From: Kushneria indalinina DSM 14324
GTDB taxonomy: Bacteria > Pseudomonadota > Gammaproteobacteria > Pseudomonadales > Halomonadaceae
Direction: 5' to 3'
Assembly (NCBI RefSeq): GCF_003385845.1
Contig: NZ_QRDJ01000009.1
Coordinates: 248,001 to 312,000, forward strand
Length of the DNA stretch: 64,000 nucleotides
The position numbers were made by a program, and so were the translations under genes. The notes under the pieces were generated by a model that was not told the DNA's origin, searched no databases, and saw only the letters and a program-made list of their open reading frames with translations. The number at the start of each line of letters is the position of its first letter. The first letter of the stretch is position 1. Positions 1-53,771 of the stretch are shown one piece after another.

Positions 1-2785
1 ATATGACTTCATCTGAAATTATATTTCTCTCAGGGCGCCCTAAATAATAACCTTGCGCATAAGTAACCCCATATGAATCCAATATACTAAGCATATCTTT
101 ATTATCGACAAACTCTGCAATAACTAACTTTCCAAAACCATGAGCAATATCAGCAATTGATTTGACGATCAACCGATCCTTATCGTCACGCAACATATTT
201 TGAACGAATGACCCGTCAATTTTTATATAATTTGATGGCAATTGATCGAGATAATGAAAACTGCTGAAACCTACCCCAAAGTCATCCAGTGCTATTTGAC
301 AGCCCAGTTCACTAATCTCCTGAAGCACATTCCTTGCGGCAGCCAGATCGGCAACTGCCGCTGTCTCCGTAATTTCGACAATAATGCGAGAAGGGCAAAC
401 GCCATTATTTTTTATCTCGTTTTCGAGAAAGTGTTTAATGGATTCGTCATGCAGGGATTGACCTGAAAGATTAATAGCAAGACTAATTTGCTTATCTTTG
501 AAAACGCTCAGCAAGGTAATGGCCTCCCTGACAACCCAGCGATCTATCTCGACAATCAATCCAAAACGCTCTGCCACGGGTATAAAGGCACCCGGCATAT
601 GAAGCGTACCATTCTCATCCTGCATTCTTAGCAGAACTTCATAATGTTTCACGCTGAAGTCATCGATACGAACAATTGGCTGAAACATCAGCATGAACCG
701 GTCGGCAGCCAGTGAGGAACGGATAAGCTCGACCCAGTAGGCCCTTTCCTGCAGCTGTTCTCTGGATTCATGTATAGAGGAAAGCAGATGCCATTTTTGC
801 GTACTCTTTTCCTTGGCCTTGTACATGGCAAGATCAGCACTGGCCATCAGGTCCGTCTCGTTATCCCCATGCTCGGGATACAGTGCAATGCCGATACTCG
901 CCATGGCTCGATGATGACGCCCGCCTTCCGAAAACAGGATCCCTTCAAGCCTCTCATGAACTTTTTCTGCGACGCCCACAGCCTCCTGCGCACCAGCCGC
1001 TTCCAGAAGAATGGAAAATTCGTCCCCCCCCTGGCGGGCCACGATGCACTCTCCGGCAAGCTCACTACTCAGGGCATCTGCCACCAGACGTAACAGCTGA
1101 TCACCGGCATGATGGCCTCCCAGCTCATTAACCATTTTGAATTGATCAAGGTCCAGATACAGCACGGCGCCGTAAGCACCCCGTCCGATAACAGCTTCGA
1201 GCGATTGCTGGAAAAAACGTCGGTTATAAAGAGAGGTTAATGGATCACGATGTGCCAGCCATTCCAGCTGCTGCTCGGCTTTCTTGCGCGCCGAGATATC
1301 AAGACCGACGGAGATGCGTTGAGCGGTTCTATCGTTGCCACCCATGGCCGTGTGGACCCAGGTAATGATCTTTTCTTCATGTCGTGCCCCTCTAACAACA
1401 CTTTCATGCTGTCCGGTCGAGTGATTTAACGTTCGAGCATGATGATGAAAGATATCCCTGAATCGTTGCCCGACAAGCTGGTCCTTTTCCATACCCAGCA
1501 CTTCAAGCGCATATTGATTTACCAGCGTAATACGCCCATCGCTGTCCTGAGTAAAAATAAGCACATGGGCCGTATTCAAAAGACCGGTGATGAAGTCTCT
1601 TTCATGAGAGAGCTCTACAAGCCTTTCATTCAGCTGCCTGCCCTTTAGATCGACTTCTCCTTCGAGTATTTCCAGCTGATTGGCCAGTTTCTGAGTCGTC
1701 TGCCCCAACACATCGATTTCATCGTGCCATAATCCATTTTTCGTGTTCGCATGCTGACGAATCTTTTCAAAGCCGCCCTGAGCCAATACTGGCAACAGGT
1801 ACGTAAGACGCCTTAGCCTCGCCATGGGACGCCACATGATTCCAAAAAGTAAAATTTCAGCGATTAACCATCCACTCAGTGCAATCAACAATGTATAGCT
1901 CGTTGTGCGGTTGATATTGCTGATCTGGTCACTAACATCCGAGGTTAATATAAAATAACCCTTGCTACTTTCTTCTTCGGCCTCGATGGGCATGGCCAAT
2001 AGCTCGTAGAAGCGATCATCATGTTTGATGATTCGGGGGTCCCCCAAAAGATCATCAAAAGGAAACTTGTTTACTGCTGATTTTAAAAGCGCCAGAGTAG
2101 ACTGCTCTCTGGTAATGGCGGTCACCGTCATTGACCAGTCAAAGAGATAATGGTCGTCTACCGTATTTTTTTCATCGTTGTTCAGCACAAGCGCGATATT
2201 GCCGCCGGCATTTTGCAATGTATAAAGAGCGATATCGGCAAGCGGCCTTGCCACCATGACAATGCCCACACTTTCCCCATCCAGAAGGATGGGGACAATG
2301 GCATACTGCCTGCAGGACTGGCGACAAAACACCTTGTTTTCAGGTATTTCATTATCGCCGACATTCTTTATCCACCGGGCAACAATATCGTCATTAATAT
2401 CCGGCTGGGCTTGCCCCATGTGCAGGAAAACGCTCCCATCGGTATTGAATACCGTCACTTCTTCAAGGCCACTTCCCAATTGCAGGGTAGGCCATTGAGA
2501 TTCAAGAACTTCTTCGCCGGCTGCGACGTTCTGGCTGACCAGCGAATCACCCAGGCTTTCTGAGGCGGCCACAATACTGGCAAGTTGTCGCAGGTCGTTG
2601 CTGTCGCGTTCGATCGACACATCAATTTCTTTGATCTGTCGCTCATAGTTATTGTTCTGCATGACCTGAAACTGACGGGTCATATTAAGATGGCTGACAA
2701 AGGTAAAGACAGAAGACAGTCCCAATAACACCAGACTGGTCAAAAATATGGCGCGCCATTTAAGACTGAAAAACTTCTGCTTCAT
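1..2785 (-). CDS. Membrane-bound sensor diguanylate cyclase/phosphodiesterase (PAS-GGDEF-EAL), 3' end missing
   Basis: The reading frame is open from an ATG at 2785 to the window edge (928 codons seen). It starts with a transmembrane helix (about residues 9-31), followed by a periplasmic sensor region resembling CHASE4 with a C-R-Q-S-C motif. A second helix lies near residue 297, then a HAMP-like linker and a PAS domain (about 395-510). The GGDEF motif is intact at residues 586-590, so cyclic-di-GMP synthesis is plausible. The EAL domain carries EVL at residues 716-718, but keeps the metal and catalytic signatures (N-L-S, E-I-T-E-T, D-D-F-G, K-I-D, A-E), so phosphodiesterase activity is also plausible. 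It lies 36 bp behind the porin gene and is probably the last gene of that operon. The region is less GC-rich than the rest of the window. Confidence 0.9.
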   Translation of the reverse strand, partial: MKQKFFSLKWRAIFLTSLVLLGLSSVFTFVSHLNMTRQFQVMQNNNYERQIKEIDVSIERDSNDLRQLASIVAASESLGDSLVSQNVAAGEEVLESQWPTLQLGSGLEEVTVFNTDGSVFLHMGQAQPDINDDIVARWIKNVGDNEIPENKVFCRQSCRQYAIVPILLDGESVGIVMVARPLADIALYTLQNAGGNIALVLNNDEKNTVDDHYLFDWSMTVTAITREQSTLALLKSAVNKFPFDDLLGDPRIIKHDDRFYELLAMPIEAEEESSKGYFILTSDVSDQISNINRTTSYTLLIALSGWLIAEILLFGIMWRPMARLRRLTYLLPVLAQGGFEKIRQHANTKNGLWHDEIDVLGQTTQKLANQLEILEGEVDLKGRQLNERLVELSHERDFITGLLNTAHVLIFTQDSDGRITLVNQYALEVLGMEKDQLVGQRFRDIFHHHARTLNHSTGQHESVVRGARHEEKIITWVHTAMGGNDRTAQRISVGLDISARKKAEQQLEWLAHRDPLTSLYNRRFFQQSLEAVIGRGAYGAVLYLDLDQFKMVNELGGHHAGDQLLRLVADALSSELAGECIVARQGGDEFSILLEAAGAQEAVGVAEKVHERLEGILFSEGGRHHRAMASIGIALYPEHGDNETDLMASADLAMYKAKEKSTQKWHLLSSIHESREQLQERAYWVELIRSSLAADRFMLMFQPIVRIDDFSVKHYEVLLRMQDENGTLHMPGAFIPVAERFGLIVEIDRWVVREAITLLSVFKDKQISLAINLSGQSLHDESIKHFLENEIKNNGVCPSRIIVEITETAAVADLAAARNVLQEISELGCQIALDDFGVGFSSFHYLDQLPSNYIKIDGSFVQNMLRDDKDRLIVKSIADIAHGFGKLVIAEFVDNKDMLSILDSYGVTYAQGYYLGRPERNIISDEVI

Positions 2786-2821
2786 GTCTGCGATCCGGCC
2801 TCTTTTGAAATATTTCAGCAA

Positions 2822-4051
2822 CTAGAATAAAAAAGAAGCCTGAAACATCAGCATATCCCAATGTCTTTCGAGATCTTCACTTTTGTTATCCGAAGGCGGG
2901 ATCCAGCCTGTTCCATCAATATTGTGATATTCAGCAGATAACAGAAGACTGGGCCGCGGCTGCCATTTGAGCCCCAGTGTCAGGTCCCTGGCAAACCTTG
3001 AGTGGGCAGGACCTCGATTATCATTTTCGTATTGTTTTCCGCTACGGTCATGCCAGTCATTGGCCATGACGTCGTAGCGTACCAACCAACGCCAATCCGC
3101 GAACAACCGGCGGTCATATTGTAGATACCAGCTATCTCCAATCACGCTTTGATTTAAATCGGCTATATCAAGCCCGCTGATTTTTCTCTTCCTAAGCGCA
3201 TACTCTGCCGTCAGGCTCCAGTCCGCACTATTATATTGCGCTGACAAGGCAATCGGTTGAAATTTGAATTTTCCATCACCAACCTCATCGACGCCAGAGT
3301 TGAAGTTTGCATTTACATCAGCAGCACTAAATGCAAAAACCATTCTTCCGCCATCATGCTCGTATCGAATCTGAGCTAATGTGGAAAATCTTCCATTCAT
3401 TGATACCGATAGATCATTACTGGGAAGACTCAAAGCGGATTCTGCATCACCATTTAAATTTGGTTTCCCACCTTCTATGGCAAAATAAACAATACCATTT
3501 CTTAACCTTTCTTCGTTATAGAAGAGGACACCATCGGATGCCAAACCAAAAGATCTGGTTCTATCAAAGTAAATGGACTGGGGAAGTAATATACTGGGGC
3601 GCGTAAATGCAATATCCCTGGTTTGGTTATATATGCCAAACGGATGCTTTATTCTTCCGACCTGAATTCCGGAAACTCGAGAGTCATTGGCAAACAACTG
3701 ATAATCCAGCAGGCCATAATCAAGACGCGGCTCATAGCTGCTGTTGTCGTCGCCGGCGCGACGGCTCAGCACCTGGGCTGAGACCAGCAGATTATTGGTC
3801 GGGCGCATGGACACGTTGGCCCCGATTTCCGTGTACTCAAGGCTGCCGGCATCCCGGCTGCTGGGACCGAAAAAGTCGTTGTGCCGGCTGATGATCAGCG
3901 CCTGGCTCAGAAAACCATGGGCCTGCACGGTATCGAAAACATCGGCATGAGCAGGCGTCACGCTGCCGGACATCGTGACGACCGACAGTGCTGCGATATA
4001 CAGGTAACGCCTGGGCTGATTACTCCACTGCGAAAACGCTGACGCTATCAT
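2822..4051 (-). CDS. Outer-membrane beta-barrel porin-like protein
   Basis: The protein has about 409 residues, a Sec signal peptide ending near A-H-A-D, and then alternating amphipathic strands typical of an outer-membrane barrel. It ends in Phe (F-Q-A-S-F-L-F), as expected of a BAM substrate. I chose the ATG at 4051 because AAAAGGAG stands just upstream and it gives a signal peptide; the frame stays open further upstream but that part encodes no such sequence. The gene overlaps the end of the upstream PstS-like gene by 32 bp, so the two are probably translationally coupled. The substrate is unknown. The N-terminal third (3715-4051) is clearly more GC-rich than the remainder. Confidence 0.8.
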   Translation of the reverse strand: MIASAFSQWSNQPRRYLYIAALSVVTMSGSVTPAHADVFDTVQAHGFLSQALIISRHNDFFGPSSRDAGSLEYTEIGANVSMRPTNNLLVSAQVLSRRAGDDNSSYEPRLDYGLLDYQLFANDSRVSGIQVGRIKHPFGIYNQTRDIAFTRPSILLPQSIYFDRTRSFGLASDGVLFYNEERLRNGIVYFAIEGGKPNLNGDAESALSLPSNDLSVSMNGRFSTLAQIRYEHDGGRMVFAFSAADVNANFNSGVDEVGDGKFKFQPIALSAQYNSADWSLTAEYALRKRKISGLDIADLNQSVIGDSWYLQYDRRLFADWRWLVRYDVMANDWHDRSGKQYENDNRGPAHSRFARDLTLGLKWQPRPSLLLSAEYHNIDGTGWIPPSDNKSEDLERHWDMLMFQASFLF

Positions 4052-4454
4052 CCACGGCTCCTTTTTCCAGATAGCCCAGCCCGCCCGGTGTACTGGCCAC
4101 ACGTTGTCGCATCTCTTCAATCGAACCAACTTCATTGGGTGCCTGTCCCGTGCCGGAAAACACCAGCCGGTCCCAGGAAAGGCGCAGCTGATGGGGGTAA
4201 ACGCCAAGAATTTCCTTGGTAAAGCGCTCATGCAAAGGGTGTTTGTCCGGCAACACGAAGACATGAGCGGCCTCGCCATTGGGCAGCGTACGCTGGCGCA
4301 TGGCAAAGATGGCGCGCACGGTTTCCCGGGTCATGTTGCCAGGATTCGCCGATGGGTTGGCGATCAGCACCACTGACTCATGGGCATGCGCCGCCTGGCC
4401 GCCCCAGAGCAGCAGCATGACGATCGATACAAGTACCTTCATGCCTCTCGGCAT
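4020..4454 (-). CDS. Short PstS-like periplasmic phosphate-binding-type protein
   Basis: The protein has 144 residues with a signal peptide (M-K-V-L-V-S-I-V to A-H-A). The mature part resembles half of a PstS/PBP-like domain: V-V-L-I-A-N-P-S near the start, T-R-E-T-V-R-A-I-F-A, R-L-S-W-D-R-L-V-F-S-G-T-G, and a closing G-G-L-G-Y-L-E. Full PstS proteins are about twice as long, so this belongs to the short stand-alone class. It is the first gene of an operon with a porin and a GGDEF/EAL sensor. I infer that it supplies ligand information to the sensor or porin; phosphate as the ligand is suggested by the family only. Confidence 0.75.
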   Translation of the reverse strand: MPRGMKVLVSIVMLLLWGGQAAHAHESVVLIANPSANPGNMTRETVRAIFAMRQRTLPNGEAAHVFVLPDKHPLHERFTKEILGVYPHQLRLSWDRLVFSGTGQAPNEVGSIEEMRQRVASTPGGLGYLEKGAVDDSVSVFAVE

Positions 4455-16263: not shown

Positions 16264-16938
16264 TCATCCTCCGGACGCCACCTGACGCTCCCAGGCCGCC
16301 AGCACAACCCGCTCGGACTGCGCCAGGTACTGCTCCAGAAGTGCCACGGCCGCTTTGGTATCGCCGCCTTCAAAGGTGTCCAGTACCTGCTGGTTCATCT
16401 CGACATACGGCCCGTGCAGCCACTCCTTGTCAGCCATCAACCCGAAGGCGAGACGCAGTTCGGCCAGAATCTGGCTAAAGAAGGCGTCAAGGCGCGGGCT
16501 GTCCGCCAGTGCCACGATAGCACCGTGAAAGGCCATGTTGGCCGTGCCGACCGCCAGCCAGTCCTTCTGCTCACGGCGCTCACGGGCGTTTTCGACCGCC
16601 GCGCGCATCTCTTTCACCGCCGGGTGGCTGGGCCAGGCCTCACTCAACGCGCGACACTCGATAAAGCGCCGCAACCGGTAGATCTCGACGATGGAGCCGG
16701 GACCGGGGCGGGTCACGAACACGCCGCGATGGGGCTGATGCGTGACAAGCCCTTCATGGGCGAGCGTGCGAAAGGCCTCCCTGAGCGTATTGCGTGACAC
16801 CCCCAGCCGCTCACACAGCGCCATTTCCGACAGCTGCTGCCCCGGGGCGAACGCCCCCTCTACCAGCAGCCGTCGAATGCCGGACGTGACGGTCTCACCC
16901 AGCGATCTGCTCCTGTCTTCCAGAGCCTGCTTTTTCAT
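16264..16938 (-). CDS. GntR-family (FCD) transcriptional regulator of the pxp/carboxylase operon
   Basis: The protein has 224 residues starting M-K-K-Q-A-L-E-D. The N-terminal winged helix contains L-C-E-R-L-G-V-S-R-N-T-L-R-E-A-F-R and the C-terminal part is a helical FCD ligand domain, with likely metal/ligand His residues in F-H-G-A-I-V. It diverges from the NRAMP-pxpA-pxpBC-carboxylase operon, and the shared 270-bp gap holds a perfect ATTGTT-G-AACAAT repeat, so control of that operon is the natural inference. An upstream extension of the frame to 17109 lacks domain similarity. Confidence 0.85.
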   Translation of the reverse strand: MKKQALEDRSRSLGETVTSGIRRLLVEGAFAPGQQLSEMALCERLGVSRNTLREAFRTLAHEGLVTHQPHRGVFVTRPGPGSIVEIYRLRRFIECRALSEAWPSHPAVKEMRAAVENARERREQKDWLAVGTANMAFHGAIVALADSPRLDAFFSQILAELRLAFGLMADKEWLHGPYVEMNQQVLDTFEGGDTKAAVALLEQYLAQSERVVLAAWERQVASGG

Positions 16939-17097
16939 TAAAGCGCCATTGTGGTCGTGACGTTTACACAGTCCACAGTGTTCCCGATAAGGGCCTGTGC
17001 CGACAAGCACCGCGATTGCACCAAAAGCGGGCGAAAGGAGATCCTGGTGCGCCAGAATGGAACACAAGTCGAATATCCCCCCGCCAGCGTCACGAGT

Positions 17098-17110
17098 ATT
17101 GTTGAACAAT
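17098..17110. promoter_or_regulatory. Candidate GntR operator ATTGTTGAACAAT
   Basis: This is a perfect 6-1-6 inverted repeat in the gap between the divergent GntR gene and the NRAMP-like gene. The symmetry and the TTGT/ACAA arms fit FCD-type GntR sites. Confidence 0.55.
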
Positions 17111-17208: not shown

Positions 17209-18450
17209 ATGGCAGCTGCTACCCCTGACGTCGGGTTCACCCGCTCCCGACGCGCCTCACTGATCGGTGCCGTCTTTTTAATGGCCACCTCGGCCGTGGG
17301 CCCCGGCTTCATCACCCAGACGGCCACCTTTACCGCCACCATGGGTGCCGCCTTTGCCTTTGGCATTCTGGCCTCGATCCTCATCGATCTGGTGGTGCAG
17401 CTCAACATCTGGCGGGTGGTGACCGTCACCGGCATGCGTGCACCCGAGGTGGCCAACGCTGCGCTGCCCGGCAGCGGTTATCTGCTGGCCGTTTTGATCA
17501 TCATTGGCGGACTGACCTTCAACGTCGGCAACATCGCCGGCGCCGGCCTGGGGCTCAACGCGCTGATGGGGCTGGACACCACCTGGGGCGGGCTGGTCAG
17601 CGCCGTCATTGCCGCCGGCATCTTTTTGTCAAAGCGGGCCGGCGTGGCCATCGACCGCATCATCATCGTACTGGGCGTTTTGATGATGGCGATGACCGTA
17701 TTTGTGGCCATCGCTTCCAACCCGCCCGTGGGCGAAGCGCTGCGCCAGACCGTCATGCCCGACACCATCAACTTTGCCACCATCACCACCATCGTCGGCG
17801 GCACCGTCGGCGGCTATATCACCTACGCCGGCGCCCACCGCCTGCTGGACCGCGGCCTGGGTGGCGTCGAGAACGTTGATACCGTCTCGAAGGCTGCCCT
17901 GCGCGGCATTCTGGTGACCGGGCTGATGCGCTATATCCTGTTTCTGGCCATTCTGGGCGTGGTCGCCAGCGGCGTGGTCATCGACACTTCCAGTCAGAGC
18001 GCCAACCCGGCCGCCCAGGCCTTTCAGGCCGCCGCCGGCGAACTGGGCCTGCGCGCCTTTGGCCTGATTCTCTGGGCCGCCGGCATTACCAGCATCATTG
18101 GTGCGGCCTACACCTCCATGACCTTTTTAAGCGCGTTTCGCCCCGGCATCAGCGAGGGCGTACGTAACCGCGCCACGCTGGTATTCATCGCCCTCTCGCT
18201 GATCGCCTTCCTGTCGATCGGTACCCCGCCGGCGGCGCTTTTGGTGTTCGTGGGCGGCTTCAACGGGCTGATCCTGCCGGTGGGGCTGACGCTGTTCATT
18301 TATGTCGCCTGGCGGCGAGCCGATCTGATGAACGGGCATCGCTATCCGCGCTGGCTATTGATCTCGGGCGCAGTGGTCTGCGCGCTGACCTGGTATATGG
18401 GCTATAACGCCATCGGTCCGATTTTTGCCTTTCTGACACCCTCTGCCTGA
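17209..18450 (+). CDS. NRAMP-like transporter without the canonical metal-site motif
   Basis: The protein has about 413 residues and eleven predicted membrane helices. It matches the NRAMP-like proteins that accompany pxpA/kipI/kipA genes, such as YcsG of Bacillus subtilis. Canonical NRAMP metal transporters have D-P-G-N in helix 1 and M-P-H in helix 6. Here helix 1 reads G-P-G-F-I-T-Q and the helix 6 region reads I-T-Y-A-G-A-H, so classical Mn2+/Fe2+ transport is doubtful. As the first gene of the operon it may import the operon's substrate. The ATG at 17209 follows CGGAG at 8-bp spacing. Confidence 0.85.
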
Positions 18451-18464
18451 ACCGGGAGCCCTGC

Positions 18465-19235
18465 ATGTCTTCTATCGATTTAAACAGCGATCTGGGTGAA
18501 AGCTTCGGTCAGTGGCGCATGGGCGATGACGCCACCATGCTCGGCATCGTCACCAGCGCCAACGTCGCCTGCGGCTTTCACGCCGGGGACCCGGCCGGCA
18601 TATCGCGCACGCTGCAGGCCGCCGCCGAACACGGCGTTACCGTGGGTGCCCATGTCAGCTATCCGGATCTGGTGGGCTTTGGTCGACGCTACATGGATAT
18701 CGCCAGTGATGAGCTGTACGCCGATGTCATCTACCAGATCGGCGCGCTCCAGGGCCTGGCCCGCGCCGCCGGCACGCAGGTGCGCTACGTCAAGCCGCAC
18801 GGCGCGCTCTACAACACCATCGCCCATGACCGGCGCCAGGCCGAGGCCGTGATCGAGGCAATCCGGGACGTGGATGCCTCACTGTTGCTGATGACGCTGG
18901 CAGGCACCCCGCTGGTGGGATGGGCACGCGAGGCCGGTCTGAATACCGCTGCCGAGGCGTTCGCTGATCGTGCCTACAACGCCGATGGCAGCCTGGTGTC
19001 TCGCCGGGAAGCAGGCGCAGTGCTCCATGACGCCGACCGGTGCGCCGAGCGGATGGATCGTCTGGTGCATGAAGGGGTAATCGAGTGCATCGACGGTCAT
19101 GATATCGCCCTCCATGCCGACTCCATCTGCGTCCACGGCGACAGCCCCGGTGCCGTGGCGCTGGCCGAGGCCGTGCGTGCTCGCCTGACCCGGAGCGGCG
19201 TGACGCTCAAGGCCTTTGCAGGCACGCCGTCATGA
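18465..19235 (+). CDS. pxpA: 5-oxoprolinase subunit A (LamB/YcsF family)
   Basis: The protein has 256 residues, the usual size for PxpA. Family signatures are [11 protein letters not shown] at the start, [20 protein letters not shown] and [10 protein letters not shown]. PxpA acts with PxpB and PxpC to hydrolyse 5-oxoproline to glutamate with ATP. It lies 14 bp after the NRAMP-like gene and 40 bp before pxpBC. The adjacent biotin enzyme leaves open that the true substrate is a different lactam or amide. Confidence 0.92.
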
Positions 19236-19275
19236 GCGCTGCCATGAATGCCCTGCCACGCGGTAAGGAGTTCCC

Positions 19276-20880
19276 GTGAGAGTACTTCCCGTCAACCTGA
19301 GCACCCTGCTGGTCGAGCTCGAGGATCTGTCGCAGGCGCTGGGGCTTTTCGATCAGCTCCAGCGCGAGCCGATCGACGGCGTCACCACCATCATCCCGGC
19401 GGCGCGCACCCTGCTGGTCCATTTCATCCCCGCCCGCATCAGCGCCGCGCAGCTTTCCCGGGCGCTCAGGGCCCGCCCGGTCAGCGGCGGCGGCCACCAG
19501 CTCGGCGAGCTGATCGAGATTCCCGTGTGCTACAACGGCGAGGACCTCGACGAGGTGGCCCGACATCTCGACATGAGCACCGATGAGGTCATCCGCCGCC
19601 ACAGCAAACACGAGTATCAGGTCGCCTTTTGCGGCTTTGCGCCGGGATTTGCCTATCTGGCCGGCGGGGCGGGTTTTGACGTGCCCCGGCGCACCTCGCC
19701 GCGCACCCGCATTCCGGCCGGTTCCGTGGCACTGGCCGGTACCTTCAGCGGCATCTACCCCACCGACAGCCCCGGCGGCTGGCAGCTGATCGGCACCACG
19801 CCGCTCGAGATGTGGGACATCCATCGCGAGCCGGCCGCACTGCTCCAGCCCGGCATGCGGGTACGCTTTACTGCCAGCGACGCTTCACCAGAGCGCGTTA
19901 GCGCCAGTGTGCCCATCGATACCACCCGACCCGCAGCGGCTGATGCCACACCCTGTCTGGAAATTCGTCAGCCCGGTCTTCAGAGTCTCTTTCAGGATCT
20001 CGGTCGCGACGGCCAGACCGGCCAGGGCGTCTCCGGCGCCGGCGCGATGGACAAGGGCGCGCTGAGAAGTGCCAACCGAATCGTGGGCAACCCGTCCGAT
20101 GCTGCCGCCATCGAGATCGCCCAGGGCGGGCTGTCGCTGGTCTGCCACCGGCCCGCCATTGTGGCCGTGACCGGCGCCGAGGCCGACGTATCGATCACCA
20201 CTGCCGAGGGCGCGCGCCGCGACGCCGCGCTCTGGTGGCCCATCGAGCTGGCCAAAGGCGACACGCTGCGTCTGGGGACCACCACGGCGGGCGTGCGCGG
20301 CTATCTGGCCCTGCGCGGCGGCTTTGATGTCACACCCGTATTGGGCAGCTGCGCCACCGACACGCTGGCAAAACTCGGCCCGGCGCCGTTACAGCCCGGC
20401 GACACCCTGAGCCCGGCCGGACTGGCGGTCACGGCGCTGTCGCTCAGTGAGTCCGGCGAATTCGATCTGCCCCGCGCCGGCGAGTGCGTCACGCTCGATA
20501 TCGTCATGGGCCCGCGCAGTGACTGGTTCACCGACGAGGCGCTGACCCTTTTGTGTGATCAAAACTGGCAGGTGACGCCGCGCTCCGACCGGGTCGGCAT
20601 TCGACTGGAAGGTGAGCACTCGCTTGCCAGAGCACACCACGGCGAGCTGCCCAGCGAAGGCACGGTCACCGGCGCCCTGCAGGTGCCGGCCAACGGCCAG
20701 CCGGTGCTGTTTCTGGCCGATCATCCGCTGACCGGGGGCTACCCGGTGATCGCCTGCGTGGCCGATCACCATCTGGACCTGGCCGGACAGATTCCGCCCG
20801 GCGCCACCGTTCGCTTCAATCCGATTACCCGTTTCGCACCGCTTGCCGGTGACGACAGCCTGACCGAGGTCACGTCATGA
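19276..20880 (+). CDS. Fused 5-oxoprolinase subunits B and C (KipI-KipA; AHS1-AHS2)
   Basis: The protein has 534 residues. Residues 1 to about 215 form the KipI/PxpB (AHS1) part, with [16 protein letters not shown] and [15 protein letters not shown]. Residues from about 228 form the KipA/PxpC (AHS2) part, with L-F-Q-D-L-G-R-D-G and G-Y-L-A-L-R-G-G-F. Most bacteria encode these separately. The GTG start at 19276 follows TAAGGAG at 6 bp. The same two domains build the carboxyltransferase half of urea carboxylase, which matters because the next gene, overlapping by ATGA, is a biotin carboxylase. Confidence 0.92.
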
Positions 20881-22643
20881 ACGCACCCGACGCTCCCAAC
20901 GCCCCGCACCCGCTGAAAAAGGTGCTGATCGCCAACCGCGGCGAGATCGCGGTGCGCATCATTCATGCCTGTCGCGATTACGGCGTCACCTCGGTGGCGG
21001 TCTACGCCGAGGGCGATCTCGACGCCCTGCATGTCCAGCTGGCCGATGAGGCCTTCGCGCTGGGCGGCGAGCGCCCGGCGGAGAGCTACCTGTCGATCGA
21101 CAGGATTCTGGACGTTGCCCGTCGCGCCGGCGCCGATGCCATTCACCCGGGCTACGGCTTTCTCTCCGAGCGCGCCGATTTCGCCCGCGCCGTGCAACAG
21201 GCGGGCCTGACCTGGATCGGCCCGAGTCCGGACACCATCGACGTGCTGGGTGACAAGGTTCAGGCGCGGCGACTGGCACTCGAAGTGGGCGCCCCACTGG
21301 CCCGCGGCACCGAAGACCCGGTCACCACCGCCGAGGAGGTCGTGGCCTTTGCCGAGGAAGTGGGATTGCCGATCGCCATCAAGGCAGCGTTTGGCGGCGG
21401 TGGACGCGGGCTGCGGGTGGCCTGGCGCATGGATGAGGTCACCGAGAGCTACCACGCCGCGGTGCGCGAGGCCGAGGCCGCCTTCGGCCGCGGCGAGTGC
21501 TTTGTCGAGCAGTATCTCGACCAGCCGCGCCATATCGAAGCCCAGATCATGGGCGATCATCACGGTAACGTGGTGGTGGTCGGCACCCGGGACTGCTCGC
21601 TGCAGCGACGCAACCAGAAGCTCGTCGAGGAGGCCCCGGCCCCGTTTTTAAGCGACGAACAGCGCCAGAGAATCCATCAGGCCGCCCACGATATCGGCAC
21701 CCGGGCCGGCTATGTCAGCGCCGGTACGGTCGAGTTTCTGCTCGGGCGCGACGACACCCTTTCGTTTCTGGAGGTCAACACGCGACTGCAGGTCGAACAC
21801 CCGGTCACCGAGGAGACGGCCGGGGTGGATCTGGTCATCGAGCAGCTGCGCATCGCTGAAGGCCAGCCGCTCTCCTTTACGAAGACGCCGGCGCCCCGCG
21901 GCCACAGCTTCGAATTTCGCATCAACGCCGAAGACGCTGCCAAGGGCTTTCTCCCCACGCCGGGCCCGGTCGAGGCGTTCAGACCGCCCACCGGCGCCGG
22001 CGTGCGCCTGGACACCGGCGTGGAAAGCGGCGGGCGCGTCTCCGGCCATTTCGACTCATTAATGGCCAAGCTGATCGTCACCGGGGCCACGCGCGCCCAG
22101 GCCATTGCCCGGGCGTGCCGGGCCCTTGAGCACTTCGAGATTGACGGCGTGGCCTCCGTTTTGCCCTTTCACCGCGCGGTCATGGCGCACCCGGACTTCA
22201 CCGGTGAGGCAAGGTTTGATGTGCATACCCGCTGGATCGAGACCGTCTTTGATGCCGATGCGCTTGAATGGGGCGCACGTCAACGCCCGAGTACCGAGCC
22301 CGGCATGCTGCACGCCATGATCGACATCGACGGCAAGCGCCACCGTGTCGGTCTGCCCACGGCCCTGCTGCAGCAGCTGGCCCCGAACGGCGCCACCGCC
22401 GCTGTTGAAGAGCCCACTGACGCAAACGCGGGCAGCGTCACCGCCCCCATCAGCGGCACGCTGCTGGCCTGGCAGGTCGAGGACGGCGCCCGGGTCAACG
22501 AGGGCGATGTCATCGCCATCATGGAGGCGATGAAGATGGAAACGCAGATCACGGCCGAGACTGCGGGTACGGTGGCGCTTCGGGCCGAGACGGGGGAAAC
22601 GCTCGAGGCAGGGCATGTGATGGCGCAGATCACCCCGGAGTGA
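20877..22643 (+). CDS. Biotin carboxylase with C-terminal biotin carrier domain
   Basis: The protein has 588 residues. The N-terminal 450 form a biotin carboxylase: [12 protein letters not shown], the ATP-grasp Gly loop A-F-G-G-G-G-R-G, the catalytic [14 protein letters not shown]. The last 75 residues form a biotinyl carrier with the lysine in E-A-M-K-M-E-T. It resembles alpha subunits of acyl-CoA carboxylases but has no acyl-CoA carboxyltransferase partner here. The start codon overlaps the pxpBC stop (ATGA). With the KipI-KipA fusion it has all the parts of a split urea-carboxylase-like enzyme. Confidence 0.9.
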
Positions 22644-22918: not shown

Positions 22919-23320
22919 ATGACGAAAGATTCAGCGCCCTCCGACAAGGAGAAGATCCTTCCCCTGCTTGAGGAAACGCTCGATGTCTCTCGTCGTGAGG
23001 TCACCACCGGCAGGGTCAGGGTCAGTACCGAGACGCATGAGCGCACGGAAAGCATCGATGAGATGCTCTCGCAGGCGCGTGTCGAGGTCGACCACGTCGA
23101 GATCAATGAGTATGTCGATGAGATGCCCGACACGCGCCAGGAGGGTGACACCACCATTATTCCTGTCGTCGAGGAAGTCCTGGTGGTGGAGCGGCGCCTG
23201 CGACTGAAGGAAGAAGTGCACGTGCGCCGCGTTCATGATCAGACGCCCTGGCATGAAGAGGTGACGCTGCGCGAGCAGCGCGCCGTGGTAACCCGTCAGG
23301 ACGACGACGTTACCGAGTAG
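22919..23320 (+). CDS. Small DUF2382 (YsnF/AvaK-type) stress protein
   Basis: The protein has 133 residues and is highly charged. It shows the DUF2382 pattern L-P-L-L-E-E-T-L-D-V-S-R-R-E-V-T-T-G-R-V and ends with E-V-T-L-R-E-Q-R-A-V-V-T-R. The mix of acidic and basic residues on beta strands is typical. Such proteins are linked to general stress in other bacteria; no enzymatic function is known. It is followed after 47 bp by a larger paralogue and probably shares its transcript. The 275-bp gap upstream is AT-rich and contains a TATCTT-10-AAGATA inverted repeat. Confidence 0.85.
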   Translation: MTKDSAPSDKEKILPLLEETLDVSRREVTTGRVRVSTETHERTESIDEMLSQARVEVDHVEINEYVDEMPDTRQEGDTTIIPVVEEVLVVERRLRLKEEVHVRRVHDQTPWHEEVTLREQRAVVTRQDDDVTE

Positions 23321-23367
23321 GTTTCACCGGCCCAGGCCGATTCAAGCACGATAAAGGAGTGTATTTC

Positions 23368-24276
23368 ATGGATGAACAACTCGTTGTTGCCGTATACGAC
23401 ACCGAAGCACGCGCCGATGAAGCCATGCAGGACCTGCGTGATTCCGGCATTCCCGAAGAGACCATCAATCGTCATGCTCAGCAGGGTGAAGTGTCCCACG
23501 AGCATCATGAAGAAAAGGAAAAGCCGAGCTTCTGGCAGCGCCTGTTCGGCAAGAGTGACGAAGACACCAGCGATTACGACCGCAACGTTGAACAGGGGGC
23601 GACCGTCATCGCCGTACGCGCACCGATCGCCGACATCGATCGCATCGAAGAGATTCTGGAACGCCACGACCCGGTCGACATCGACGAACAAAGTGGCCAT
23701 CGCCCCGACAATACGCCGGGCACTGCCGGCGCCATGGGTGCAGGTACGGCCGGCGCCATGGGTGCAGGTACGGCCGGCGCCATGGGTGCAGGCACTGCTC
23801 CTGGCGTAGCCCCCGGCGGCGCGGATACCGGCGTTGCCGAACGCGACACTGCTCATACCGATCAGGAAGAGACACTGCCGCTGTCGGAAGAAGAGCTCCG
23901 GGTCGGCAAGCGTGACGTCGAGCGTGGCACCACCCGCGTACGTCGTCACGTGGTCAGCACGCCGGTCGAGGAAGATGTACACCTGCGTGATGAATCGGTC
24001 TCCGTCGAGCGCCGCCCGGTCACCGGTGACCGTCCGGTCAGCGATGCCGACTTCACCGACAAGTCGGTCGAAATGACCGAGACCGATGAAGAAGCCGTGG
24101 TCAGCAAGGAAGCGCACGTGCGCGAGGAAGTGGCCGTTCGCAAGGACGTCGGTGAGCACACCGAGCACGTCAGCGACGAAGTCCGCCATCACGAAGTCGA
24201 TATCGACGATACCGACGGCACGCATCGTGATGACCCGGCCCATCATGACGACACGCTGGACCCCAAAAAGCGCTGA
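23368..24276 (+). CDS. YsnF-type stress protein with general-stress N-domain and DUF2382 C-domain
   Basis: The protein has 302 residues. The N-terminal 110 residues resemble the general-stress-protein-17M/YflT-like fold (V-A-V-Y-D-T-E-A-R-A-D-E-A, V-I-A-V-R-A-P). A Gly/Ala/Met linker of three direct repeats follows, then the DUF2382 domain (L-P-L-S-E-E-E-L-R-V-G-K-R) and a very acidic, His-rich tail. The ATG at 23368 follows AAAGGAG. The strong charge fits a soluble protein of a salt-adapted cell. Function unknown; stress association is by family. Confidence 0.85.
   Translation: MDEQLVVAVYDTEARADEAMQDLRDSGIPEETINRHAQQGEVSHEHHEEKEKPSFWQRLFGKSDEDTSDYDRNVEQGATVIAVRAPIADIDRIEEILERHDPVDIDEQSGHRPDNTPGTAGAMGAGTAGAMGAGTAGAMGAGTAPGVAPGGADTGVAERDTAHTDQEETLPLSEEELRVGKRDVERGTTRVRRHVVSTPVEEDVHLRDESVSVERRPVTGDRPVSDADFTDKSVEMTETDEEAVVSKEAHVREEVAVRKDVGEHTEHVSDEVRHHEVDIDDTDGTHRDDPAHHDDTLDPKKR
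23719..23790 (+). repeat. Three 24-bp in-frame direct repeats (G-T-A-G-A-M-G-A linker)
   Basis: The unit GGTACGGCCGGCGCCATGGG plus TGCA is repeated three times, units 2 and 3 being identical. It encodes an 8-residue Gly/Ala/Met linker between the two domains of the DUF2382 protein. A copy-number change would shift linker length by eight residues without breaking the frame. Confidence 0.9.
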
Positions 24277-40010: not shown

Positions 40011-42020
40011 CTACGCCGAGTCACGCTGCGGTGACAGGGCCGGATAGCGTTTCATAAGCTGTTCGAACAGCTCATGAATCACCGCGGCACCCTCGACCAC
40101 CTCTCCTTTGTCGTAACGCGCCGCCAGGCCATCAAAAAGCTGGTGCTTGATGAAAAATCGCCACGCCACCGGAAGGCTGGCCAGAATATCGGTCAGCGCC
40201 GCGTAGCGCTCGCGCGTCCAGCGCGTTTCGAACGCATCGCGGTACGGGCCATAGGCGAAGGGCGCATCGGGCAGCACGCGCGACTGATCACGCATTGACC
40301 GGCGCAGCGCCTGCGTCTTTTCCTCGCTGACCCGATCATGATCAAGCACCACGCCGTAGTCGGTTCGGGCCCGCTCGGGCGAGACGTAACCACACCGCAC
40401 ATCCCTGAGCACCTCTTCCGACAGCCGGTCCAGCGGATCGCCGTAGCCACCCGCACCACAGCCCACCAGCCGGATCACGTCACCGGGCTGGCAATGCACG
40501 ATGTCGGTATTGCCGAGCGCCTCGGCATGGTCGGCCTCCGGATTGCGGGTAAAGCGCGCCGTGGCACCGGCCTGACCGCCCAGAATCCCCCAGGAGGCGA
40601 AATGCGTGCGGTCGCGGTTGCGCGCCGTGACCATGGTACCCGGGGAGAACACCTGAAACTCCATGCAAAGCCCCAGCCCACCGCGATAGCGACCCGGCCC
40701 GCCGGAGTCCGGTACCAGGCAGTAGCGGTGCATCAGGATGGGCACTTCGGCCTCGTTGATCTCGACCGGCGTATTGCGCAAAAAGGCCACGTTGGCTCCG
40801 GAACCGTCGCTGCCGTCACCAAAGGGCATGCCGCCGGCGCCGCCGCCGACCGGACCCAGCGAGGCCATCAGCGTGCGTCCGTCACTGTCCATGGTCTTGA
40901 CGCTCATGATGGCAAGACCGGCCGCGGCGCAGGCCGGCAGCCGCTCGGGAATTGCTCGGGAGAAGGCCCCGAAGGTCAAAACGTGGGTGAGCTTGCAGGT
41001 CAGACTTCGCATACCCACGGCCGCCGGCGCCACGGCGTTGACCACACTGCCCTCGGGCAAAACACAGCGCACCGGCCGGTCCAGACCGGCGTTGAGCAAA
41101 ATGTCGTCCTGCAGGGTGTAGAGCACATAGTGATAGCCCACCAGCGCCAGAGCGTGGCGCACCATGCCGCCGGTGGGCATGTTGAGCGAGGAGGCCAGCT
41201 GCGGATCGCTGCCGGTGTAATCGAGAATGGCCTCCTCGCCGCGAATCTGCAGATTAAGCGCCAGCCGCATCGGCTTGCCCGCCACGCTGTCCTCGTCGGC
41301 GTATTCGGCGAAGAAATAGTCCCCGTCGGGGACGGTAGCGATCACCTGGCGGGCCTGGCGTTCAGCGTAATCAAGCAGCGCATCCATGCCGGTACAAAAA
41401 TCCGCCGTCCCGAAGCGCTCGATGATCTCCAGCACCCGCTTTTCGCCGTTGTGCAGCATCGCGATCTGGGCCATGAGATCGCCCCGGTTCTGCTTTGGCA
41501 CGCGCACGTTGGCGGCCATGATGTCGAGCAGCGACTCATCAAGCACACCCTCGCGCACGATTTTGACCGGTGGAAAGCGAATGCCCTCCTGCTCGATTTC
41601 GGTGAGCGTGCGCGACAGCGAGGCCGGCACGGCGCCGCCCATGTCGGTGTTATGAATGTGGCCGCCGACAAAACAGATCAGCATGCCCTGATAAAAGACC
41701 GGCTTCCACATCACGATATCCGGAGTGTGGGTGGCCACGCTGCCGCTGTAGGGGTCGTTGGTCATGGCGATATCGCCGGGGCGATAGTCCTCAATCCGTG
41801 ACAGCACAGGTCCATAGTCGAGCCCGATATACCAGGTCGCCCCCAGCGTGCGCGGGGAAGCAAAGGCCAGACCCTCGGGTGTGATCAGCGCACACGAGAA
41901 GTCTTCGGTTTCCTTGATAAAGGTCGAGTGCGCCGTACGTACCAGGGTGTAGGCCATGCTTTCGGCCGCTGCCACACAGTAGTTGGCAAAGATCTGCACA
42001 ACGGTGTTGTCAAAGGCCAT
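40011..42020 (-). CDS. hyuB: Hydantoinase B/oxoprolinase family protein
   Basis: The protein has 669 residues. Family signatures include A-H-S-T-F-I-K-E-T-E-D-F-S-C-A, M-T-N-D-P-Y-S-G-S and G-G-H-I-H-N-T-D-M-G-G, whose Asp and His residues are likely metal ligands. HyuB works with HyuA to open five-membered cyclic imides or lactams with ATP, as in N-methylhydantoinase, 5-oxoprolinase and acetophenone-type carboxylases. The ATG follows GGGGAGA and lies inside the end of hyuA (11-bp overlap), so both subunits are made together. Confidence 0.9.
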   Translation of the reverse strand: MAFDNTVVQIFANYCVAAAESMAYTLVRTAHSTFIKETEDFSCALITPEGLAFASPRTLGATWYIGLDYGPVLSRIEDYRPGDIAMTNDPYSGSVATHTPDIVMWKPVFYQGMLICFVGGHIHNTDMGGAVPASLSRTLTEIEQEGIRFPPVKIVREGVLDESLLDIMAANVRVPKQNRGDLMAQIAMLHNGEKRVLEIIERFGTADFCTGMDALLDYAERQARQVIATVPDGDYFFAEYADEDSVAGKPMRLALNLQIRGEEAILDYTGSDPQLASSLNMPTGGMVRHALALVGYHYVLYTLQDDILLNAGLDRPVRCVLPEGSVVNAVAPAAVGMRSLTCKLTHVLTFGAFSRAIPERLPACAAAGLAIMSVKTMDSDGRTLMASLGPVGGGAGGMPFGDGSDGSGANVAFLRNTPVEINEAEVPILMHRYCLVPDSGGPGRYRGGLGLCMEFQVFSPGTMVTARNRDRTHFASWGILGGQAGATARFTRNPEADHAEALGNTDIVHCQPGDVIRLVGCGAGGYGDPLDRLSEEVLRDVRCGYVSPERARTDYGVVLDHDRVSEEKTQALRRSMRDQSRVLPDAPFAYGPYRDAFETRWTRERYAALTDILASLPVAWRFFIKHQLFDGLAARYDKGEVVEGAAVIHELFEQLMKRYPALSPQRDSA

Positions 42021-44079
42021 CGCGGTTCTCCCCGTTCGTTACGGCGTTATTGATCAGATGCAGATTGCCCCAGCCGTCAACGCTGACGGAAAAGCCCGGC
42101 AGCACGCTGGTGGTGGTGTCGTCCTGGGCCACGATAGCCGGCCCCTCAAAGCGGTGCCCCGATCTCAGATCGGACCTGCGATACAGCGCCACCCGACGAT
42201 GGGCGCCGTCCATCCAGGCCTGCACGTGATCACAGGGGCGTGCCGGTTCCCGAGCGGTTTCGATGGTTTTCAGAGTAGGCTTGGGAGTGGGCACGGTGGC
42301 GATCAGGCGCAGCGATACCACCTGAATGTCGGCCCCTTCGTCGCGATAGTGATAAAGGCGCTCGTGCTCGCGATGAAAGGCGTCGCGCAGCGCCGACAGC
42401 TTCCCGTGGCGAACATCCTCAACGGTCAGGGGCGTTTCGATCTCGAACGACTGGCCCTTGTAGCGCATTTCGGCGGAGAGCGTGAGCTCGGGGGCGGCGT
42501 CGCCGGCCTCCTCGACGATCCAGTCGCGTGCTTCGCGCTCCAGCGCTGCCCGGTCCTGATCCAGCCGCTCAAGCGTGGCCTGAGTCAGGTCATACCAGGT
42601 GATGCGCACGAAGTCGTTGCGGGTGTCCGCGATCAGACCGCCCAGAGCGCTGAGCACGCCGGGCGTAGTGGGCACGGCAATGGTCTGCATGTGTAGCGTA
42701 CGCGCCAGATAGCAGGCCAGCATCGGCCCGGCCCCGCCAAAAGGCATCAGCGAAAACTGGCGCGGGTCGATCCCGAAGCGCGATACCAGCCGGCTGATGC
42801 CGGCATACATGCCCGAAATCGCCACGTTGACGATGGCCTCGGCCGTGGCTTCCACCGGCTGGCCCAGTGTCTCGGCCAGCTGCCCTACCGCCCGGCGCGA
42901 TGCGGCAATATCAAGGTTGACCGTGTCGTAGCCCAGCGGTGACTGGCCCAGGATGCCCATGACGGCAAAGGCATCGGTGATGGTGGGCGCCGTGCCGCCG
43001 CGCCCGTAGCACACCGGTCCGGGCGTCGAGCCGGCACTTTCGGGGCCGACCTTGAGCACGCCGAGCGTGTCGACACTGGCAATCGAGCCGCCGCCGTCAC
43101 CGATCGAGGTCACCGACACCGACGGAATATGAATCTGATAGTCGCCGATATATTCACCGGTGGCGTAGCGCGGCGCGCCGCCCACGATCAGGGCCACATC
43201 CGCGGTGGTGCCACCGATGTCCAGACTCATCACGTTGTCGATACCGCAAAGCCTGGCCATCCAGGCCGCGCCGATCACCCCCGAGGCCGTGCCGGACAAG
43301 ATCATCTGCACGCAGTCGGTCTTGCCCCGCTCGGCACTCATGATGCCGCCGTTGGATTTCGTCACCTGCAGCGGCGCGGTCACGCCAGTCTCGATCAGGG
43401 CCTTTTGCAGCGAGCCCAGATAGTGCGAAACCCGGGGCTGAACGTAGCCGCCGATCACGGCGGTCACGGTGCGCTCGTATTCGCGAATGGTCGGCCAGAC
43501 ATCGCTGGCGCAGGAGACAAAAAACCCCGGCATCGCCGCCTCGATCAGGTCGCGCACGCGGTGCTCGTGCACCGGGTTGCGGTAGGCGTGCAAAAGCGAG
43601 ATCACCACACCCTCGCAGCCGGTGCGCTCAAGCCCTTTGATGGTCTCGGCGATGCCGCTCTCATCCAGCGGCGCGATCTCCTCGCCCTGGGCGTTGAGGC
43701 GCCCGTCGATGCCAAAGGTGCAGTGTCGGTCGATCAGAGGCGCCGGGCGCACGGACATCAGGTGGTACATGTCCGGCGTCTTGAGACGCGCGATGTTGAG
43801 TACGTCCTCGAAGTGGCGATTGGTGATCAGCCCCAGCCGAATGCCGCGACGCTGGACCACGGCGTTAACCCCAACGGTCGTGCCGTGAGTGAAGTGCACC
43901 ACCTCGGCCGGGTCGATGCCATAGCGCCGTGACAACGTCTCCATGCCGGTGATGACCTCACTGCCGGGGCTATCGGGCCGGGAAAAGACCTTGAGGCTTT
44001 CAAGCACGCCGGTCGCGTCATCCAGTACGGCGAAATCCGTAAAGGACCCGCCAATATCCACTCCAATGCGAAGGCCCAT
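42010..44079 (-). CDS. hyuA: Hydantoinase A/oxoprolinase family protein
   Basis: The protein has 689 residues. The N-terminal actin-like ATPase motif is G-V-D-I-G-G-S-F-T-D-F-A-V and the second phosphate loop is S-L-D-I-G-G-T-T-A-D-V-A-L. H-F-T-H-G-T-T-V-G-V-N-A is also diagnostic. It supplies ATP-dependent activation of the ring substrate to HyuB. AGGAG lies 10 bp before the ATG. The gene follows the third FAD oxidoreductase gene after a 96-bp gap on the same strand. Confidence 0.92.
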   Translation of the reverse strand: MGLRIGVDIGGSFTDFAVLDDATGVLESLKVFSRPDSPGSEVITGMETLSRRYGIDPAEVVHFTHGTTVGVNAVVQRRGIRLGLITNRHFEDVLNIARLKTPDMYHLMSVRPAPLIDRHCTFGIDGRLNAQGEEIAPLDESGIAETIKGLERTGCEGVVISLLHAYRNPVHEHRVRDLIEAAMPGFFVSCASDVWPTIREYERTVTAVIGGYVQPRVSHYLGSLQKALIETGVTAPLQVTKSNGGIMSAERGKTDCVQMILSGTASGVIGAAWMARLCGIDNVMSLDIGGTTADVALIVGGAPRYATGEYIGDYQIHIPSVSVTSIGDGGGSIASVDTLGVLKVGPESAGSTPGPVCYGRGGTAPTITDAFAVMGILGQSPLGYDTVNLDIAASRRAVGQLAETLGQPVEATAEAIVNVAISGMYAGISRLVSRFGIDPRQFSLMPFGGAGPMLACYLARTLHMQTIAVPTTPGVLSALGGLIADTRNDFVRITWYDLTQATLERLDQDRAALEREARDWIVEEAGDAAPELTLSAEMRYKGQSFEIETPLTVEDVRHGKLSALRDAFHREHERLYHYRDEGADIQVVSLRLIATVPTPKPTLKTIETAREPARPCDHVQAWMDGAHRRVALYRRSDLRSGHRFEGPAIVAQDDTTTSVLPGFSVSVDGWGNLHLINNAVTNGENRDGL

Positions 44080-53704: not shown

Positions 53705-53715
53705 ACGACCCGACC

Positions 53716-53771
53716 ACTTCTGCCCGGTTACTTCTGCCCGGCCACTTCTGCCCGGCCACTTCTGCCCGGCC
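53716..53771. repeat. Four 14-bp tandem repeats behind a stop codon
   Basis: The unit ACTTCTGCCCGGCC occurs four times head to tail; only the first copy differs, at its last two bases. The array starts 12 bp after the aminotransferase stop codon. Confidence 0.93.

Follow-up and report, generated by a model that had tools for sequence, protein, structure and literature searches.

A fused PxpB-PxpC gene linked to a biotin carboxylase in Kushneria indalinina: a candidate biotin- and bicarbonate-dependent 5-oxoprolinase

Introduction

The ATP-dependent 5-oxoprolinase PxpABC of Bacillus subtilis, Escherichia coli and Corynebacterium glutamicum shares its PxpA, PxpB and PxpC domains with an operon that we analysed in Kushneria indalinina DSM 14324, located at positions 17209 to 22643 of a stretch of 64,000 nucleotides of contig NZ_QRDJ01000009.1 (the window). 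Gene clusters of this kind are as a rule annotated as the ATP-driven enzyme. In contrast to PxpABC, this operon encodes PxpB and PxpC as one fused protein and carries its own biotin carboxylase (BC), joined to a biotin carboxyl carrier protein (BCCP) domain. As judged from sequence comparisons, we consider it probable that the operon specifies a biotin- and bicarbonate-dependent 5-oxoprolinase. The direct basis for this reading is formed by the genes and their order, by the linkage of BC to the fusion across Proteobacteria, and by an operator in the promoter region.

Several related systems have been described. In C. glutamicum, the pxp genes are accompanied by an NRAMP-type transporter gene and a divergent GntR regulator gene (the pxpR-pxpT layout), with the same operator core as in the window (PMC13274462). 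Mutation or deletion of the PxpR operator raised expression 6.5-fold, and the paper's introduction gives 5-oxoproline as a ligand of PxpR. The mum operon of Acinetobacter (mumTLUHC) shares with the window the order NRAMP, PxpA, PxpBC fusion and BC-BCCP. This was seen in Acinetobacter sp. WC-141 (locus L181), where LysR, NRAMP, PxpA, D-glutamate cyclase, PxpBC and BC-BCCP follow the order mumR-mumTLUHC; four of the five genes in the order NRAMP-LamB-MumU-MumH-MumC stand in order in the window. The regulator of the mum operon is of the LysR type (MumR), and its MumU place is taken by a D-glutamate cyclase; the window has a GntR regulator and neither of those. The mum paper calls MumC a urea carboxylase and MumH a homologue of allophanate hydrolase, and notes that mumU had no predicted function (PMC5050338). 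Growth of A. baumannii on urea as the sole nitrogen source required mumC and not mumH (PMC5050338). By order and homology, MumH would be the PxpBC fusion, i.e. a carboxyltransferase (CT). A Staphylococcus aureus operon carrying pxpB, pxpC, pxpA, accB and accC (PMC11315280) can be likened to the window by gene content: Pxp, BC and BCCP genes occur in one operon, with BC and BCCP separate.

Urea carboxylase, or urea amidolyase, has in common with the window set a BC, a BCCP, the CT fold and, as predicted for the window, carboxylation of an amide before hydrolysis. The window set differs in that it consists of two chains and has its CT halves the other way round, that urea carboxylase Lys1605 is replaced by Arg, and that PxpA takes the place of allophanate hydrolase in the operon. 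Whether separate urea-carboxylase-like CT genes work with other biotin carboxylases was left open by Lombard and Moreira in 2011 (PMC3199775). As the arrangement is widespread and the operon type is already in print (A. baumannii mum and S. aureus pxp-accBC), the mechanism rather than the gene set would be new; our literature search for a biotin-dependent 5-oxoprolinase found no description.

Results

The operon and its promoter region comprise the following features:

16264-17109, minus strand: divergent GntR/FCD regulator (Pfam GntR and FCD), a candidate 5-oxoproline sensor like PxpR
17098-17110, no strand assigned: ATTGTTGAACAAT, which on the opposite strand reads as the 13-bp PxpR operator core of C. 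glutamicum
17209-18450, plus strand: NRAMP-family transporter (Pfam Nramp), like PxpT, YcsG and MumT
18465-19235, plus strand: PxpA (Pfam LamB_YcsF), predicted hydrolase of the activated ring
19276-20880, plus strand: fused PxpB-PxpC, with CT_C_D (PxpB-like) followed by CT_A_B (PxpC-like) in one open reading frame, predicted carboxyltransferase
20877-22643, plus strand: BC-BCCP of 588 aa (biotin Lys553), AccA3-like

The original prediction, made from the letters of the window, described PxpA, a fused PxpB-PxpC and a BC-BCCP joined by an ATGA overlap. This was borne out by the Pfam domains and the coordinates, the overlap of the fusion and BC-BCCP genes reading tcATGAacg; as to the content of the operon, the Pxp and BC genes were correctly named, and the NRAMP gene at its start had been left out of the title. 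By our by-eye reading, the GntR/FCD gene likely starts at the ATG at 16938. For NRAMP relatives, uptake of 5-oxoproline or Mn2+ has been reported (PMC13274462, PMC10448178, PMC5050338).

The Pfam order in BC-BCCP is Biotin_carb_N, CPSase_L_D2, Biotin_carb_C and Biotin_lipoyl. The ATP-grasp motifs are kept (glycine-rich loop GGGGRG at residue 173 and a 10-residue motif at 299), and the biotinylation motif is AMKM with the biotin lysine at residue 553. With its BC domain and both kinds of motif, the protein has the features of a biotin-dependent carboxylase. PxpA is likewise clear-cut, with an E-value of 3.4e-103 and 344.9 bits for LamB_YcsF and 383.7 bits for NF003814 (cut-off 226). The fusion scored below the models for PxpC (NF045499, 184.1 versus 500 bits) and PxpB (TIGR00370, 133 versus 145.55 bits), by which it differs from PxpABC, and above the broader model TIGR00724 (252.9 versus 230.2 bits). 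The urea carboxylase model TIGR02712 (cut-off 1303.85) gave 173.5 bits for the fusion and 521.2 bits for BC. Fusion of B and C is common and not strict: in a congener (locus L100), an operon otherwise alike encodes B and C as two frames.

To see which partners the BC-BCCP could have, we inspected the host genome (3.75 Mb in 14 contigs). CPSase_L_D2 was found in eight places, three of them weak. The five strong ones are a 456-aa frame, which we take from its size to be AccC, the BC-BCCP of the operon, a 1224-aa frame, and two places in one frame of 1120 aa, presumably carbamoyl-phosphate synthase. A true urea carboxylase is encoded by the 1224-aa frame (1847.9 bits for TIGR02712), which lies beside an allophanate hydrolase (808 bits, cut-off 511). 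Carboxyl_trans had only two matches in the whole genome, frames of 322 and 324 aa that have presumably the size of AccD and AccA, and no further Carboxyl_trans beta-subunit partner for BC-BCCP was found there. CT_A_B is present in two proteins only, one being the urea carboxylase and the other the fusion. This makes the fused PxpBC the obvious partner of BC-BCCP. The original prediction that no acyl-CoA carboxyltransferase is present holds for the operon, while the genome has the two AccA/AccD-sized frames. Since urea has its own carboxylase and allophanate hydrolase in this genome, it is an unlikely substrate of the operon. By this genome evidence, the TIGR02712 scores and the Arg at the Lys1605 position, urea carboxylase was rejected as the function of the operon, in which point we differ from the possible urea-carboxylase-like enzyme first suggested.

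Linkage of BC to PxpBC was followed in three samples, in all of which "no BC" means none within the retrieved stretch. In Pseudomonadota, 397 genomes were searched for CT_A_B, 200 were positive, and 80 of the weaker genomes were listed again. Together with the window locus, the 120 loci taken gave 121: 85 came from the strongest matches listed, and 35 out of 85 from the relisted weaker genomes, fused-looking frames first and then spread. Urea carboxylases were left out by frame length, and in genomes with several copies not every second copy was caught. Of these loci, 88 had no BC (one of them with a fused PxpBC), 21 had a separate BC and 12 had a BC-BCCP polypeptide, frequencies that are not population estimates because of how the loci were chosen. 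All 12 loci with a BC-BCCP polypeptide were of the window type, 11 with fused PxpBC plus L100.

In a second scan of named genomes, nine window-type fusions served as queries, without the BC, and the best 80 of 578 confirmed relatives were taken. By the record titles, these belong to Gamma-, Beta- and Alphaproteobacteria and Actinobacteria. BC stood directly downstream of the fusion in 74 of the 80 loci (61/61 proteobacterial and 13/19 actinobacterial), with a median of 5.5 nt from the fusion stop to the start of the BC domain (n = 74). Because these loci were retrieved with the fusion alone, the adjacency is not due to chance. A carrier domain was found in the BC frame in at least 71 of the 74 linked loci, a lower bound as short BCCP domains can escape phmmer. 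The six loci without BC were all actinobacterial (L187, L206, L207, L211, L212 and L213), and the contig of L206 ends about 100 nt past the fusion. Since such a scan favours close relatives, an even actinobacterial sample was added: among 119 genomes, 27 had CT_C_D at 31 places, and 20 places were retrieved.

A tree of 203 concatenated PxpB and PxpC sequences, rooted with the urea carboxylase of the genome, contained a window-type clade of 93 tips (support 1.0), comprising 86 BC-linked tips, six unlinked actinobacterial tips and Mycobacterium smegmatis MSMEG_0435-0436. As L079 and L166 are the same locus, the 86 BC-linked tips represent 85 loci and the 93 tips 92 loci. Adding the 20 further actinobacterial loci enlarged the clade to 106 tips (support 0.997), of which 87 were linked, 18 were unlinked, all of them actinobacterial, and one was that of M. 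smegmatis. A different BC-linked group, type 2, formed a separate clade (support 1.0) with the usual order pxpA-BCCP-BC-pxpB-pxpC and BC in 16 of 18 loci. A tree of the BCs placed the 86 window-type tips with seven actinobacterial AccA3-like proteins (support 0.86); the 16 type 2 BCs formed a group of their own (support 0.999), and the AccC of the genome was placed with the BCs of L039, L055 and L119, not with the operon BC. Because these three sets of BCs group apart, BC coupling was probably acquired more than once in the family. Pairwise distances of BC and PxpBC correlated with r = 0.80 over the 86 tips, a number that stands without a control protein.

Two side observations concern the other BC-linked lineages. 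The type 2 loci (L042, L043, L046 and 13 others) have BC, BCCP and unfused pxpB and pxpC and have kept the urea carboxylase Lys; their operons are perhaps split amide carboxylases of their own. Furthermore, L225-L227 are actinobacterial pxpB-pxpC-BC-pxpA clusters with ordinary Gln-type PxpB and represent a further BC-linked lineage.

Three positions separate the window clade from 86 other relatives, in which they are mostly Gln (PxpB, 69 of 86), Gln (PxpC, 77) and Lys/Arg (PxpC, 80). All 93 clade tips have Phe/Tyr/Trp/His, Pro and Val/Ile instead, the window fusion having Phe, Pro and Val; urea carboxylase has Tyr, Pro and Cys, and type 2 has Phe, Val and Met/Thr. The clade-marking residues of the window fusion are F157, R347, R414, W417, P484 and V491. 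Arg347, Arg414 and Trp417 occur in 93/93 clade tips, and among the 13 extra actinobacterial members Arg414 occurs in 13/13 and Trp417 in 12/13. Loss of the Gln-Gln-Lys/Arg set as a universal mark of biotin coupling was rejected, given L017, L119 and L225-L227, which have BC with ordinary residues, and L131 and L135, which have the aromatic residue without BC.

An AlphaFold model of the fusion built from 54 sequences had a mean pLDDT of 92.9, and an earlier model from 9 sequences (pLDDT 54.6) was too poor and was set aside. The predicted fold matches Thermus TTHA0988 and the PxpBC structures of M. smegmatis and E. coli (3MML and 5DUD), and more loosely the urea carboxylase of Kluyveromyces lactis; a search of a viral structure library gave no match at E ≤ 0.001. 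For the window BC-BCCP, the closest PDB chain is mycobacterial AccA3, and one of its entries, 9YX5, also contains M. smegmatis PxpB and PxpC according to the aligned chain sequences. This entry is titled "Structure of the long chain acyl-CoA carboxylase complex from Mycobacterium smegmatis with MSMEG_0435-MSMEG_0436 bound" and was released on 2025-11-26; our literature search for the paper behind it found none. Others have thus shown a member of the window clade physically bound to an AccA3-containing complex, catalysis being beyond what the entry shows. MSMEG_0435-0436 shares with the window its PxpBC clade and an AccA3-type BC-BCCP as partner; it differs in that B and C are unfused and the BC-BCCP is part of an acyl-CoA carboxylase and not dedicated.

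Clues to the substrate came from the promoter and from neighbouring genes. Between the GntR gene and the transporter gene, ATTGTTGAACAAT corresponds, on the other strand, to the core of the PxpR operator agATTGTTCAACAATct of C. glutamicum, and the window has one match against none in 100 shuffles. Its arms of 6 bp were spotted by eye, and a search of the promoter region for inverted repeats with arms of at least 8 bp found none. With at most one mismatch and the central base free, the operator was present in 60 of the 80 scan loci (43 exact) versus 4 (0 exact) in one two-base-block shuffle, and in 10/12 window-type loci of the Pseudomonadota sample versus 7/109 other loci. In 45 of these 80 scan loci, it stood no more than 300 nt upstream of whichever gene comes first, NRAMP or pxpA. 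In an Acinetobacter (L181) and a Pseudomonas (L137) locus, the gene between PxpA and PxpBC belongs to the D-glutamate cyclase family:

L181, 7153-7968: D-glutamate cyclase family member (PF07286) at the MumU place
L137, 7185-7991: D-glutamate cyclase family member (PF07286) at the MumU place

Such relatives accompany 34/80 scan loci and 4/12 window-type Pseudomonadota loci; PF07286 was not found in the host genome. D-Glutamate cyclases make 5-oxo-D-proline. Together with the retained PxpA, the operator and these neighbours are clues that point to 5-oxoproline as the likely substrate.

Elsewhere in the window, two neighbouring DUF2382 proteins are encoded at 22919-24276 (plus strand), the second with a perfect 24-bp tandem repeat of 2.8 copies at 23725-23792. 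A 14-bp tandem repeat, CCCGGCCACTTCTG, occupies 53709-53771 with 4.5 copies and 89% matches. The GC content of positions 1-4000 is 0.47-0.48, compared with 0.57-0.69 in the other 2-kb blocks, and this region has one long open reading frame (2822-4306). A HyuA/HyuB-type pair at 40011-44079 (minus strand) is closest to caprolactamase CapA/CapB and far under the cut-offs (456 and 243 versus 1000 bits); it adjoins an L-pipecolate-oxidase-like FAD protein and an IclR-type regulator, and we read it as a second ATP-dependent lactam or amide hydrolase of the window.

Discussion

The substrate, the N-carboxylation and the order of steps that we infer for the window operon are as follows. Using ATP, the BC domain would carboxylate the biotin of the adjoining carrier domain, and this domain would bring the CO2 to the fused PxpBC, which would carboxylate the amide nitrogen of 5-oxoproline. 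PxpA would then hydrolyse the activated ring, and the N-carboxyglutamate formed would lose CO2 to give glutamate. The net reaction would be that of the ordinary ATP-dependent 5-oxoprolinase, with the ring activated by carboxylation and not by phosphorylation. The module logic of a biotin-dependent amide carboxylase, already recognised in the original prediction, was strengthened by the co-occurrence of the genes, by the lack of a rival carboxyltransferase other than the AccA/AccD-sized ones and by the solved AccA3 complex. Its suggestion of an undescribed lactam or amide reaction stands in a narrower form, as the substrate need not be another lactam when the operator and the D-glutamate cyclase neighbours point to 5-oxoproline. 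The co-occurrence that it proposed to check was found in Proteobacteria and in the named-genome scan, and failed in the even actinobacterial sample.

A number of observations weigh against a biotin-dependent 5-oxoprolinase. The general base of urea carboxylase is Lys1605 (PMC5770610), which we mapped, via an alignment with 5I8I and 3VA7 and with a numbering offset of our own derivation, to the Lys of SSKYNPART in the urea carboxylase of the genome. At this position the fusion has Arg138, as do 93/93 clade tips and also 86/86 relatives without BC in the stretch, including Thermus TTHA0988, whose neighbours were not seen. Among other BC-linked groups, only type 2 has Lys (18/18 tips). The Arg therefore speaks against a mechanism simply copied from urea carboxylase. 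Of the 20 loci in the even actinobacterial sample, 13 fell into the window clade and BC was adjacent in only one of the 13 (L241), which ruled out strict linkage across the whole clade and therefore slightly lowered our confidence. Each of the 18 genomes whose clade member is unlinked (6 from the scan and 12 from the even sample) encodes a full-length BC-BCCP at another place, the frames being 590-744 aa long and 48-61% identical to that of the window. This fits borrowing of AccA3 for carboxylation without proving it, and it counts for little because an AccA3-like protein may be general in Actinobacteria, control genomes not having been searched. Conversely, seven loci with BC nearby keep an ordinary Gln-type PxpB (L017, L039, L055, L119 and L225-L227), so the clade signature and BC linkage are different things.

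The substrate clues have their limits as well. FCD-type regulators often use TTGT...ACAA sites, and the operator is therefore a strong hint of 5-oxoproline and not a proof. In 15/80 scan loci it is over 300 nt away from the leading NRAMP or pxpA gene, preceding an MFS transporter gene in the one such locus examined (L146); in 20/80 it is absent, and among the 13 clade loci of the even sample it occurs only in L241. The D-glutamate cyclase relative is not specific to the window type, since it is also found in 9/109 other Pseudomonadota pxp loci. The association seen in 9YX5 could be one of storage or inhibition. Finally, the pxpTABC genes of C. glutamicum support growth on 5-oxoproline, with no carboxylase named in that paper (PMC13274462), and mum, the closest characterised operon, has been published as a urea carboxylase, its phenotype of mumC-dependent growth on urea contradicting our rejection of that function (PMC5050338).

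One alternative is an ordinary ATP-dependent 5-oxoprolinase beside which BC-BCCP acts as a regulating neighbour or a spare acetyl-CoA carboxylase subunit. The Arg shared with PxpB proteins that have no linked BC, the AccA/AccD-sized carboxyltransferases in the genome and the loss of linkage in most sampled Actinobacteria would agree with it. We nevertheless regard it as unlikely, as BC was linked in every proteobacterial scan locus, the operon BC falls among AccA3-type proteins, apart from the AccC of the genome, the Gln-Gln-Lys/Arg residues of other PxpBC are replaced throughout the clade, and a clade member binds an AccA3-containing complex in 9YX5.

Another alternative is a biotin-dependent carboxylase of the same design acting on another amide or lactam, such as 5-oxo-D-proline only, hydantoin, or urea as proposed for MumC. 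Its attraction lies in the pocket, where the clade-specific R414, W417 and P484 replace residues usual in other PxpC, and in the mumC requirement for urea-only nitrogen growth. We hold it to be doubtful: the host is fully equipped with urea carboxylase and allophanate hydrolase, the mum-like operon of at least one Acinetobacter (WC-141) lies about 10 kb from a gene for a 1201-aa urea carboxylase, deletion of mumH, the PxpBC gene by order and homology, left growth on urea intact (PMC5050338), and the operator and cyclase neighbours point to 5-oxoproline. That one PxpBC would combine the classic PxpABC activity with a second, carboxylating one, both ATP routes operating, is highly improbable, since the window clade has lost the ordinary residues, even if PxpBC sets with ordinary residues also stand beside BC (L017, L119 and L225-L227).

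Returning to a biotin-dependent 5-oxoprolinase, we lean slightly towards a wider picture in which one fold serves two ring-activation chemistries: ordinary PxpBC would phosphorylate, and the window clade would carboxylate via carboxybiotin with bicarbonate as a recycled catalyst, AccA3 being borrowed in many Actinobacteria, MumC being one such enzyme, and BC coupling having arisen several times. If this is true, a biotin- and bicarbonate-dependent lactam hydrolase would be widespread in Pseudomonas, Acinetobacter, rhizobia, Burkholderiales and Actinobacteria, where these enzymes would be mislabelled as acetyl-CoA carboxylase, allophanate hydrolase or members of the urea amidolyase family. This would settle what Lombard and Moreira (2011) asked about separate urea-carboxylase-like CT genes and biotin carboxylases (PMC3199775). 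The mum operon would need re-reading, and MSMEG_0435-0436 on the mycobacterial carboxylase would gain a function. Borrowing of AccA3 would, moreover, tie 5-oxoproline salvage to lipid synthesis and biotin supply in many Actinobacteria.

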